DNA of 27,578 nucleotides from positions 1 through 27,578 of IMG/VR virus record IMGVR_UViG_3300002514_000197; one strand, given 5' to 3'. Made by a program: the position numbers and the translations under genes. The notes beneath the pieces were generated by a model. It saw only the letters and a list, made by a program, of their open reading frames with translations. It had not been told where the DNA came from and ran no database searches. The stretch comes from a virus. Of this stretch, positions 15,916 to 21,441 are shown piece after piece (position 1 is the first letter of the stretch; every line of letters starts with the position of its first letter).

Positions 15916-17799
15916 TTAGCTAGTAGCGCCTGCGCCGCCCATCATGTCTTGGACAACAACCAGTCCATACATATCAGGTCGAACCATCTTCTTGGCGTAC
16001 CGAGTCATGACACCCTTACGGGGCACGAAGTCCTCAGTACCGAAGATAGTCGGGGTGACCTGCAATGGCACGTATGGAGCGTACACATAGCCCGACTCAA
16101 GGAAGCTAGCGCCCTTGCGACCCACGAGAACAACGTTCCGCAGGAAGTAAGGATCAACGTAGACATCCCACTTCTTGGAGAGTGCACCAACCTTGACAGC
16201 ACCAACCGTACCACGATCAGCGTCACCAGTGACACTAGCGCGGAAACCAGCAGTGAACTCAAGGATGTTGGCGATCTCAGGACCACAAACAATGAAGTTT
16301 GCGCCACCGCGAAGCGTCTTGCGGTGAATCTGAGCGCTCACGTCGTTGATGGTCTCAACGAGAGTCTCATACCACTCAGACACGTTACCGGTGAAGTCGG
16401 GAGCCGCCGAAGAGGCACCAATTTCCTTACCAGTCTCGCGTTGAACAAACTTGGAAGGCGAACGTGACCAGAAGTAACGGCCAGCCTTCGCTCCAACAAC
16501 AAGGTCATTGAGAATCTCACGATCGATTTCAAGAGCAATCTGCTCCGAAAGGATCTGCGTAAGCTCAACCTCGGCATCGAGGTTATGATACGCATTGAGA
16601 TCTTGACCAAGCTCGGGAGTCCACTTAGCCTTGAGCTTCTTGGTCATCGCCGTAACGGCAATCGCATCCACCTTGATATCGATCTCGGGAATGTCAGTAT
16701 TCATTCCAGCGAGAGGTCCAATATTCTCAGTGTACGCGCTACCAGCGCCTTCAAGGCCCCATGGTGTACCAGGGACAACAGCACCAGCCTCACCAGCTCC
16801 GAAGCTATCGGCAACAGCGTAACTAAACTTGTTGCCCTCACGGGACATGAGAGAAAGAGTACCAGAAGCGAGCACCAACCGATCGGACTGTGAGCCCGTT
16901 GAAGCAGCCATAATGAGCAGCGTTGTACCATAAATGGTATCGAGCGGATCATACTGCGTCAAGCGACGAGCCTGTCTACCAGTCTCTGCGTGCGCATGAA
17001 TTCCTGCGGCAAGGGTGCCAGTCAGCGTATTCGCAATAGTAATAAGATTATCTTTATTAAGACTGGGGAAATTGGTGACTGCCACCGTACCAATAGCAAC
17101 ACCAGAACCAGAAAGGTCTGCGTCGTTACGGGTCACATAGTCAAAGTACTCCTGAACAGTGTTGAACGTAATGCTACCGAAGCCCGAGTTAGCAGTCGCC
17201 GGAAACGCAATCGTTTGCGGATCGGAGACATCTTCTCCAGCAACACCGGCATCAGCACCACCCACAGTACCAGTAACCATGGTGGTGATGAGAACAGTCT
17301 TGTCGTCGGTGAAAGAGCCAGTGGGCGAAGAGTAGCCGTTATTCAATGAATAAAAGCCTGTCTCATCGTTCAGCCCTGACAAGCTCACGCCGCCAGTGAT
17401 CTGCGAAGCAACCGCTCCACCGCCATACAGCGAACTATTGGCCGTAGCGCCAAAGCGAGCCTCGTTGAACGTAAAGTCCAAGAAGAAGATCAGACCAGAA
17501 GGCAAGCTCATGGGCTGAACACTAACAATATCATTGGCAATCAAGCCACCAAAAACACGACGAACGATGGGAAACGCAACAGAAGCAAAGCCCTGCACAT
17601 CACCACCAGCCATAGACGACGCTTCCTTAAGAAGCTGAGCCGCCTGATTCTCAAGCAAACGAGCCATAGTATTCTTTTTATGGTCGTGAGAGAGTCCTTC
17701 CAAAAGGCCGGTCTTGTCCCACTTTTCAAGCAGGGCAGCACCTTCATTTTGGAGGGAACGCTCTTTAATACCCTCAGTAAGGGTTTCTAAAACAGACAT
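15916..17799 (-). CDS. Major capsid protein, T4 gp23-like
   Basis: This is the shell protein of the T4 gp23 type (HK97 fold). Matches include VRRVFGGLIANDIVSVQPM (79-97), KAKWTPELGQDL (390-401) and LDAEVELTQILSEQIALEI near 407-425, all at gp23-like positions. The N-terminus (1-59) looks like the cleaved delta domain; LKE ending at Glu59 is a good gp21-type cut site, comparable with T4 cleavage after residue 65. At 627 aa it exceeds T4 gp23 (521 aa), the extra lying mainly between about 150 and 350. The ribosome-binding site is strong (AAGGAGG) and an intrinsic terminator follows the gene, consistent with very high expression. Confidence 0.95.
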   Translation of the reverse strand: MSVLETLTEGIKERSLQNEGAALLEKWDKTGLLEGLSHDHKKNTMARLLENQAAQLLKEASSMAGGDVQGFASVAFPIVRRVFGGLIANDIVSVQPMSLPSGLIFFLDFTFNEARFGATANSSLYGGGAVASQITGGVSLSGLNDETGFYSLNNGYSSPTGSFTDDKTVLITTMVTGTVGGADAGVAGEDVSDPQTIAFPATANSGFGSITFNTVQEYFDYVTRNDADLSGSGVAIGTVAVTNFPSLNKDNLITIANTLTGTLAAGIHAHAETGRQARRLTQYDPLDTIYGTTLLIMAASTGSQSDRLVLASGTLSLMSREGNKFSYAVADSFGAGEAGAVVPGTPWGLEGAGSAYTENIGPLAGMNTDIPEIDIKVDAIAVTAMTKKLKAKWTPELGQDLNAYHNLDAEVELTQILSEQIALEIDREILNDLVVGAKAGRYFWSRSPSKFVQRETGKEIGASSAAPDFTGNVSEWYETLVETINDVSAQIHRKTLRGGANFIVCGPEIANILEFTAGFRASVTGDADRGTVGAVKVGALSKKWDVYVDPYFLRNVVLVGRKGASFLESGYVYAPYVPLQVTPTIFGTEDFVPRKGVMTRYAKKMVRPDMYGLVVVQDMMGGAGATS

Positions 17800-19437: not shown

Positions 19438-19448
19438 TAATAAATAGT
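19438..19448 (-). promoter_or_regulatory. ACTATTTATTA motif upstream of small beta-rich protein gene, candidate late promoter
   Basis: Identical 11-mer to the one at 18918-18928; it overlaps the first base of the bS21 stop codon by one base and ends six bases before the GGAG of the next gene. Confidence 0.35.
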
Positions 19449-19678
19449 TATTTTATATCCAATTTCTTATTTCTTTCTTGTTCTGCTTTACGAGCATTAT
19501 TAATTTTTTGCTTCTTTTGTCTTCTTTTTTTGGTGGAGGGTTTTTCATAAAATCTTTTACTTAAGTATTTCTCCATTACCCTTTCTTTCTTGGTCTTCTT
19601 TATGAACTTCTTAATTAATCGATTCGTGTCACCACGAACCTCATTGAGAGTTACCTCAACATTTATTGCTCTACTCAT
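19448..19678 (-). CDS. rpsU: Ribosomal protein bS21, phage-encoded
   Basis: This 76-aa, very basic protein carries the bS21 signature: an N-terminal beta strand (INVEVT), a helix with RLIKKFIKKTKK, and FYEKPSTKKRR at 43-53, matching FYEKP-T/S-x-x-x-(K/R) in bacterial bS21, followed by a long Lys/Arg-rich helix. Length is close to E. coli bS21 (71 aa). bS21 binds the 30S platform near the 3' end of 16S rRNA and helps initiation on mRNA. It lies between putative internal head proteins and scaffold, with an AAAGGA ribosome-binding site, three bases after its neighbour, so it should be made late with the capsid genes. It looks intact. Phage bS21 homologues are known; the reading that it tunes host ribosomes toward phage mRNA is inference. 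Confidence 0.9.
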   Translation of the reverse strand: MSRAINVEVTLNEVRGDTNRLIKKFIKKTKKERVMEKYLSKRFYEKPSTKKRRQKKQKINNARKAEQERNKKLDIK

Positions 19679-19681
19679 TTT

Positions 19682-20083
19682 TCATCCTTTTAAAGCATCC
19701 CATTTACCACCGGCAAGCCTCATAATCCCAGTAATATCAACACCGGCATCGTCTGGCGGCACCCCTGCGAGTGCCGCCCCAAGGCCCTCTTCTGGTCCAG
19801 CCACCGGCTGTGTGTTCTCGAATACATTAATGTCAGTGCCAATCGGCCCAACCGATTCATTAAGACGACGAATTCTTTCTTGGCGCTGTCGCTCAAGTTC
19901 CTCTTCTTGGCGTCTTATGTCTGCCGGATCGGGACCTCTCTTCACCTCAGTTATAGTTTGCGCACCCATACCTCTTACGACTTCGGATACCACCTGAGAT
20001 AAAATGCCCTCTTCAAGAAGAACTTCTCTAATTGTTTGTTTAATCAAGGGCTTTAATACTTTTTTTAATTCATTTGTTTTCAT
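19682..20083 (-). CDS. 133-aa protein with related N-terminal peptide, putative internal head/core protein
   Basis: The N-terminus (MKTNELKKVLKPLIKQ then TIREVLLEE) is a looser version of the leader found in the two upstream genes: MK, then LK, then IK and a Glu-rich end. A charged coiled segment follows (about 55-75, RQEEELERQRQERIRR). The C-terminus is Gly/Pro-rich and ends KWDALKG, resembling the end of the scaffold protein (RWKALAGLK). The gene is followed after three bases by the bS21 start. The ribosome-binding site is weak. An in-frame seven-codon frame just upstream (MKVTKTE then TGA) looks like a remnant start. The function is unknown; association with the prohead core is inferred. 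Confidence 0.75.
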   Translation of the reverse strand: MKTNELKKVLKPLIKQTIREVLLEEGILSQVVSEVVRGMGAQTITEVKRGPDPADIRRQEEELERQRQERIRRLNESVGPIGTDINVFENTQPVAGPEEGLGAALAGVPPDDAGVDITGIMRLAGGKWDALKG

Positions 20084-20111
20084 GTATCACTCTGTTTTAG
20101 TTACTTTCATT

Positions 20112-20408
20112 TTATATAAGCCCCAGTTCTTTGCTTTTTGCAATTAAAGCTTGGTCACAACGTTTCACAACATCTAGTTTATTATTAAAATAATCCATTA
20201 CTTTAGCAGACAGTTCTTCATGTCTGGCGTCTTCCTCGGGGGAAAGGTAACCTTTATTCATTAAAATTTTAAGCTGTGTGGCTGTCTCGACGTAATCTGT
20301 GCAATCATCACCTTTATCTTTCTTAAAAAAGTCAAGAAATCCTTCTTTTACTGTTTTTTCTATCTCTTCTTTAATAATCTGTTTTAATTGTGATTTGGTG
20401 ATTTTCAT
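20112..20408 (-). CDS. Small protein with MKITK-type N-terminal peptide (98 aa), putative internal head protein
   Basis: The N-terminus MKITKSQLKQIIKEEI repeats that of the preceding gene, and the DNA of the first 16 codons differs at only 6 of 48 positions, so the leader was duplicated. The remainder is unrelated: a helical, charged domain of about 75 residues with two cysteines (in DDCTDY and KRCDQA). It follows its neighbour by 11 bases with an AAAGGA ribosome-binding site. A potential protease site, IKE, ends the leader. Role as an internal head or core protein is inferred from leader and position. Confidence 0.78.
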   Translation of the reverse strand: MKITKSQLKQIIKEEIEKTVKEGFLDFFKKDKGDDCTDYVETATQLKILMNKGYLSPEEDARHEELSAKVMDYFNNKLDVVKRCDQALIAKSKELGLI

Positions 20409-20419
20409 TGTTTATTCCT

Positions 20420-20827
20420 TTAGTACATTCCGCCGGTATCTCTATCTCTATAAGATGTCCGGGTGCCTTCTTCGCCTTGTGGGCCTGCGCCTATTGCCTT
20501 TAGAGCTTTTTCAAGTTCTGTTTTAAAGTTTGAGGCAATAGGCTCATCTGGATAATCTCCTAGAAACCAATATTTGTCATCGTCTTCAATTTTACCAATT
20601 ACTCCGTCTGCCAAGCTGTCGATATCGTAAGCGCCGATGATCACATGCTCAACGCCGTTAATACGGAGCTTGACCTCTGTTTGATCATATTTTGTTTCCA
20701 TTCCTAAAAATTCAACACTTGTTTCTGTACCTTCAAGTTCAAACGAAACTTTGCGGTTTTCTTCATTTAGGACTCTTCCAATCTCTTCTTTAATAATTTG
20801 CTTTAATTGTGCTTTTGTAATTTTCAT
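20420..20827 (-). CDS. Small protein with MKITK-type N-terminal peptide (135 aa), putative internal head protein
   Basis: The first 16 residues, MKITKAQLKQIIKEEI, are a short basic amphipathic helix almost identical to the start of the next gene's product. The rest is a separate, strand-rich acidic domain (about 26-100) with a Gly/Arg-rich end. Two (Leu/Ile)-x-Glu sites, IKE (12-14) and LNE (20-22), lie at the end of the shared peptide, where a gp21-type protease could cut. The gene overlaps the protease stop by four bases and has an AAGGA ribosome-binding site. An encapsidated protein delivered by a removable targeting peptide, like T4 internal proteins, is an inference. Confidence 0.8.
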   Translation of the reverse strand: MKITKAQLKQIIKEEIGRVLNEENRKVSFELEGTETSVEFLGMETKYDQTEVKLRINGVEHVIIGAYDIDSLADGVIGKIEDDDKYWFLGDYPDEPIASNFKTELEKALKAIGAGPQGEEGTRTSYRDRDTGGMY

Positions 20828-21441
20828 GATAGGATATCCTTAATTAAAGAATCAATCTTGTTTTCATTAATTAGAGTTTCATTAACGTTAATGTGCGGTC
20901 CAATAGAAATGTTTTTAGGTGATAAATACGCACCCGGTGTTGACGGCTCTGAGACCATATCAAAACAGATCAGTTGAAAATCATCCTCAACAATGGTTTG
21001 TCCATTGGATTCACGCACAGAACCAAGACCCCTTGAAGAGATGCCAAGTTTGATGCCTGACTTAACCAAGGACTTAAGAATTTTACCAGATGGTGTATCA
21101 AGAACTTCAATCTTGCCCATCACATTATCACCGTCCCACCACATCTTCGTTACGAGGTGGCTGGCGTTCTTTAGGTTGATAACAGAATCATCAGGGTGGT
21201 CAAGTTCCCCCAAGGAACGACGCTCGCTCACAGCATTTTGGTATCTTTCAAGCTCTCTCTGTAAAGTTTCTTTGCGATAAACTCTTCCGTTACCATTTTT
21301 AACACCAGCCCTTTGGCAAACGCCGACAAGATAAACGCCACCATTAGAAATGTTACGTTTCTCGGATTCGGTTAGCCGCTCAATAGGGCACCGGCCCTCG
21401 GGGCATAACTCAAAATATTCTGTAAGCAGTTGTTTTGCCAT
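20824..21441 (-). CDS. Prohead core protease, T4 gp21-like
   Basis: This serine protease of the T4 gp21 type (peptidase family S77) matures the prohead by cutting scaffold, capsid and internal proteins, typically after a (Leu/Ile)-x-Glu motif. At 205 aa it is close to T4 gp21 (212 aa). The two hallmark blocks are visible: GELDHP with catalytic His82, and KLGISSRGLG with the catalytic Ser at 135 or 136. Its start is coupled to the preceding 42-aa gene (TAATG), and its stop overlaps the next start (ATGA). The C-terminal 25 residues may be the self-removed part, but I could not place the cut. Confidence 0.94.
   Translation of the reverse strand: MAKQLLTEYFELCPEGRCPIERLTESEKRNISNGGVYLVGVCQRAGVKNGNGRVYRKETLQRELERYQNAVSERRSLGELDHPDDSVINLKNASHLVTKMWWDGDNVMGKIEVLDTPSGKILKSLVKSGIKLGISSRGLGSVRESNGQTIVEDDFQLICFDMVSEPSTPGAYLSPKNISIGPHINVNETLINENKIDSLIKDILS

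Follow-up and report, generated by a model that had tools for sequence, protein, structure and literature searches.

Two leader genes beside the prohead protease

The window, by which we mean the whole stretch of DNA analysed, is a complete virus record of 27,578 bases, and this record is apparently a fragment of a virus genome. Its minus strand carries a structural module of the T4 type with an S77 prohead protease, a scaffold-like protein and the major capsid protein gp23, whose best matches include Rhodothermus phage RM378. A putative terminase and portal were assigned by position and by the gene order of T4. Two small genes, ORF135 and ORF98, are located between the protease and the scaffold genes; both start with nearly the same peptide (the leader) and continue into different proteins (the cargo). 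The features of this region are listed from low to high coordinates.

15916-17799, minus strand: major capsid protein gp23 (PF07068, E=1.6e-71)
19682-20083, minus strand: third gene, starting MKTNELKKVLKPLIKQTIREVLLEEG; conserved family beside the protease, with homologues in 92 loci
20087-20110, minus strand: possible leader stub (MKVTKTE*) immediately before the start of the third gene
20112-20408, minus strand: leader gene 2, ORF98; leader, putative V20-K-E22/G site and 76-residue cargo
20343-20408, minus strand: ORF98 leader, residues 1-22 (MKITKSQLKQIIKEEIEKTVKE), PSSM score 58.8
20420-20827, minus strand: leader gene 1, ORF135; 16-residue leader, putative L20-N-E22 site and 113-residue cargo
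20762-20827, minus strand: ORF135 leader, residues 1-22 (MKITKAQLKQIIKEEIGRVLNE), PSSM score 59.3
20824-21441, minus strand: prohead protease (Peptidase_S77, gp21-like; PF03420, E=3.6e-34; phrog_207, E=2.7e-58), a candidate processing enzyme for the leader

The N-termini of ORF135 (MKITKAQLKQIIKEEI) and ORF98 (MKITKSQLKQIIKEEI) are equal over their first 16 residues but for one. The first-pass annotation of this DNA had described two nearly identical starts followed by complete divergence, and both observations were borne out: 6 of 48 bases differ, and nothing visible is shared downstream. The IKE site that it had pointed out (residues 12-14) is present in both proteins. Further along, residues 20-22 read L-N-E in ORF135 and V-K-E in ORF98, the latter not being a strict L/I site. 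A search of the record for further copies of the leader returned only these two genes and no third copy, and ORF98 had no match in the phage collection. An AF2 model of ORF135 from its single sequence places a helix at residues 5-21 followed by strands, at a mean pLDDT of only 47.8, which is insufficient for a fold search.

The neighbouring third gene had been credited with a looser form of the leader. This was ruled out by a PSSM score below 0 and by its membership of a separate conserved family. This family occurs in 92 loci with 77 distinct N-termini, in most cases immediately downstream of the protease, and had no match in the phage collection. A stretch of the [LIVF]xE..G type lies at residues 15-34 in 72 of the 77 distinct N-termini, and we regard the third gene as a candidate prohead-core protein. 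A near relative of the window (L004) has a leader fragment comparable to the MKVTKTE* stub between its protease and third gene. The stub itself may be a chance occurrence, because motif stubs overall were not enriched over the reversed control (15 versus 17).

The interval from the third gene to the scaffold region contains, at 19448-19678 (minus strand), a gene for a small protein resembling ribosomal protein S21; its Pfam match (E=4.5e-6) falls just short of the curated cut-off. Microcystis phage Mel-JY01 has an annotated S21 in the equivalent position.

Spread, genomic setting and putative cleavage site of the leader

At least 120 stretches in viral contigs matched a degenerate DNA pattern of the leader, and 753 distinct leader ORFs were eventually collected from 184 loci, ORFs sharing their first 40 residues having been dropped before counting. 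Many loci are tandem arrays of small ORFs that all carry the leader and all differ behind it. The arrays hold up to about 17 leader genes, and an alignment-based search of whole records found up to 26 matches in one record. The sharing is not due to chance, because 138 of 2670 ORF starts (21 loci, the window included) reached a PSSM score of at least 8, compared with 0 of 2040 in reversed sequences. The check proposed with the first reading, whether related phages carry this leader on different cargo, thus gave a strongly positive result. Three loci (L228, L222 and L213) have arrays of about 15-17 genes with a more basic variant of the leader (MKITKRQLKRIIKEEK.KLL.E), and their contigs include large genomes.

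Searches beyond these contigs returned little. No start scored 8 or more in the scanned stretches of T4 (64000-110000), RM378 (80000-129908), Mel-JY01 or Flavobacterium phage immuto (all except 100000-107999 and 150001-160410). With three leader peptides as tblastn queries, the only known phage matched was LR756508.1 (E-values 2 to 9), and plasmids gave no match; a 22-residue query is weak, so diverged leaders may exist in both. A wider leader pattern, applied to bacterial and archaeal genomes totalling 257 billion bases, found seven stretches, all in metagenome-assembled bins. These fall on five contigs from four MAGs, all with leader genes and mostly in arrays. PF03420 was also present in two of the four MAGs, and one of the contigs (101,404 bases) is equal in size to a viral contig; we suggest that the leader contigs in MAGs are viral contigs in bins. 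A literature search found no description of the leader sequence in the sources it covered, which exclude most subscription journals and preprints.

Leader and protease were found together from both directions. The leader was present in 37 of 50 virus records seeded with the protease, several of the 13 without it being short fragments, and PF03420 was found in 28 of 46 records that had been collected by the leader independently of the protease (the longer records among 79). The leader genes sit among head genes in contigs with an S77 protease. Leader genes were found upstream of gp16 and gp17, between these two, flanking the protease and after gp23. At protease loci, they are concentrated 6-14 kb upstream of the protease (near the terminase genes and upstream of them), up to 2 kb away from it, and 6-8 kb downstream. 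Two large genomes (273 and 288 kb) have long leader arrays also far from head genes. Strand was dropped as a line of evidence: all 181 of 181 leader genes lie on the protease strand, as do 957 of the 973 other genes (called greedily, at least 100 aa).

Residues 1-16 are nearly fixed across the leader ORFs, a conservation that arises partly by construction because the search pattern selects M1 to E15 except residues 6 and 10. To avoid circularity in evaluating the cleavage site, membership was scored on residues 1-16 only and the site was sought in residues 16-30. An [LIV]xE site was found there in 533 of 753 ORFs, compared with 256 +/- 13 (maximum 287) in within-protein shuffles and with 16% in a control window at residues 31-43. 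Replacing the glutamate of the pattern by aspartate or lysine lowered the count from 533 to 126 or 191, respectively. The two ends of the site are coupled, with E22 in 260 of 370 ORFs that have [LIVM] at residue 20 and in 49 of 383 that do not. Among residues following the site, Q and N were the most enriched and G, S and A less so. The original statement that the leader ends in (Leu/Ile)-x-Glu stands as a statistical trend: ORF98 itself has V-K-E, and about 29% of leader ORFs have no [LIV]xE in residues 16-30.

The prohead protease of T4 cleaves after L/I-X-E (PMC9026906). The window's gp23 has LLKE/A at residues 59/60 as a putative propeptide site, and all 42 distinct homologues (42 of 42) carry an [LIV]xE in the propeptide region, with A as the next residue in 32. 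By our reading of these N-termini, the motif would correspond to the T4 cut.

Internal copies of the leader motif also occur. A few ORFs run leader-cargo-leader-cargo in a single frame, and 28 internal leader matches have no methionine at the first leader position; some of these probably start with GTG. A small module, VSSEKQRRWACAQ..., either follows a leader directly or forms the C-terminus of longer leader ORFs. An [LIMV]xE stands in front of it in all 12 of 12 leader ORFs, but these sequences are related and do not count as 12 independent cases. A tiny module (SNIYKWCP.G.KC.P..KTKWWKG), found directly after the leader and C-terminally in larger leader ORFs, was confined to leader ORFs (9 of 9) among the sequences searched. 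The loci that carry it are L092, L093, L132, L133, L134, L175, L194, L210 and L212.

These results bear on whether the leader could instead be a binding or localisation helix that acts inside the cell and has no role in the virion. The helix is amphipathic, the site could simply extend its pattern (with [LIV]xE reflecting no more than an amphipathic acidic helix), and some internal copies of the motif exist. Such a helix would not readily account for the coupling between P3 and P1, the excess of glutamate over aspartate and lysine, the association with the S77 protease or the [LIMV]xE ahead of the shared C-terminal module, and we consider this explanation quite improbable.

Cargo diversity and turnover

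The proteins behind the leader are highly diverse. Single-linkage clustering (E<=1e-3, with only the longest ORF per stop kept) divided 701 cargos into 426 clusters, 346 of them singletons; the largest cluster, with 146 members, is apparently chained together by shared modules. The idea of a modular leader joined to diverse cargo thus survives in its main part, with 753 ORFs and 426 clusters, and loses the third gene, which falls outside the set. The cargos have a mean net charge of -5.8, and 76% of 711 are acidic.

Domain searches covered 290 of 437 cluster representatives against Pfam and PHROGs, the longest 140 also against NCBIfam, and most cargos in this sample had no recognisable domain. 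Pfam identified seven families among the 140 and two among the further 150. PHROGs identified 19 families among the 140 (17 of them with no assigned function, one exonuclease and one annotated as virion structural protein, phrog_14991, E=0.00034) and a single family with no assigned function among the 150. Single members match RNase_T, RMF, FliG_C and some other Pfam families. One leader ORF (L127, 6255-7055, minus strand) has a YkuD L,D-transpeptidase cargo (E=2.6e-20) with its active-site motif, a cell-wall enzyme that may be carried in the virion. Because Pfam recognises little, the case for effectors is made from analogy and turnover and not from domains.

Turnover can be seen among near relatives. 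Two leader genes are present in the window and four in L003, whose protease is 94% identical. In L004, with a protease 93% identical, the part examined contains no leader gene but a leader-like fragment where the other two carry leader genes. The ORF135 cargo and its L003 homologue are 98.3% identical in DNA over a 484-base block, compared with about 75-89% in the flanking blocks. The far end of this block lies in the next leader, and the tract also takes in the last part of the protease gene. Between genomes, DNA homology usually stops inside the leader: homology ends at +20 to +75 in 176 distinct leader genes and spans the start in 48, compared with 240 and 1474 for other genes (locus pairs more than 97.5% identical across 2.5 kb and loci below 4 kb having been dropped). 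This pattern fits an exchange of cargo genes through the leader, although alignments also stop there for the simple reason that nothing beyond the leader is shared.

The clustering of these boundaries in leaders, together with the slightly greater codon similarity of adjacent leaders (0.62), might suggest that the leader is a trace of recent duplication or a selfish recombination site with no function as a protein. The codons argue against this. Where residues are equal, leaders of one locus have a codon identity of 0.587, nearly as low as the 0.547 of leaders from different loci, and the amino acids are nearly fixed, so it is the peptide and not the DNA that is kept. Selection on the peptide makes a functionless trace very improbable indeed.

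The same data apply to the idea that the leader proteins are components of the prohead core (scaffold) that shape or fill the prohead and are then degraded or kept, rather than injected effectors. The position of the leader genes among head genes would agree with it, as would the adjoining third gene, which resembles a conserved core-type protein. A structural role is hard to reconcile with cargos of this diversity and turnover (426 clusters for 701 cargos; starts spanned in 48 versus 1474 cases), and the number of leader genes in the regions examined varies among near relatives (0, 2 or 4), which indicates that no single one is needed. We regard a core role as unlikely.

A proposed capsid-targeting propeptide and known systems

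We propose that the leader is probably a propeptide that targets proteins to the capsid and is cleaved by the S77 prohead protease; packaging, cleavage and injection are inferred. What the data show is an N-terminal peptide conserved at the protein level (residues 1-16, often followed by [LIV]-x-E at about residue 22) on hundreds of small proteins that are otherwise unrelated, in phages of the T4 type with an S77 protease gene and mostly in the head-gene region. The proposal is weakened by a leader unlike the T4 CTS, by the acidic cargos, by the roughly 29% of ORFs with no site, by the arrays that lie far from head genes and by the 13 of 50 protease-seeded records with no leader. The amphipathic helix of the leader would bind the prohead core or scaffold, enclosing the cargo as the head forms. 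The protease would then cut after [LIV]xE, around E22 or possibly earlier at I-K-E14, and release the mature cargo within the head. At least some cargos would be injected from the head along with the DNA, and cargos would be gained, lost and exchanged quickly, often with exchange boundaries in the leader.

A more far-reaching version, which we put forward only tentatively, is a dedicated delivery platform of uncultured T4-type phages, in which a leader with an origin independent of the T4 CTS loads dozens of exchangeable effectors per genome into the head. The leader DNA would serve as the crossover site for cargo exchange in cassette arrays, and some cargos would be polyproteins with modules released at [LI]xE sites.

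If the propeptide reading is true, the leader is a tag by which phage proteins that are probably injected can be recognised in many uncultured viruses, and hundreds of nameless small ORFs become candidate host-takeover or anti-defence proteins. It would also be a natural and very permissive packaging signal, and a targeting peptide that doubles as a recombination site for effector exchange. The three internal proteins of T4 inhibit type IV restriction enzymes (PMC12373910), and the same screen could be applied to the leader cargos.

The internal proteins of T4 are the closest comparison. They have only an N-terminal leader in common, which directs packaging, and they are injected, each inhibiting a different GmrSD restriction system (PMC12373910, PMC9026906). 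Like IPI, IPII and IPIII with their CTS, the proteins described here are unrelated, small and joined to a common short N-terminal leader. As in T4, a gp21-type protease is encoded (that of T4 cutting after (L/I)xE) and the cargo varies across related phages (PMC9026906, PMC12373910). The differences are also considerable. The leader has no sequence similarity to the T4 CTS (PSSM scores of -53.8 to -56.7 for ipI, ipII and ipIII) and spans 16-22 residues, compared with 10-19 for the T4 internal-protein propeptides. Three such genes are present in T4, and ten or more are reported in its relatives, whereas our records have up to 26 matches. The cargos are mostly acidic, whereas the T4 internal proteins are described as basic, and the tandem arrays and occasional fused leader-cargo-leader ORFs are unlike the T4 internal proteins.

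Other phages offer partial parallels. The far-T4 phages are likewise divergent, uncultured and of the T4 type, and the available part of their description mentions no internal-protein leader (PMC4360716). The giant Salmonella phage SPN3US has ejection proteins with propeptides and many head proteins, several cut by its prohead protease; the available portions of those reports describe no short leader common to a large set of exchangeable genes (PMC5694885, PMC10052503). In phage P1, an N-terminal stretch of DarB is sufficient to bring a reporter into the capsid, but DarB is one large protein of an unrelated phage, whereas many small proteins are found here (PMC9024508). Because its leader is unmatched to that of T4 and its cargos are acidic and not basic, the system would be T4-like in its working and not a member of the T4 set by sequence.
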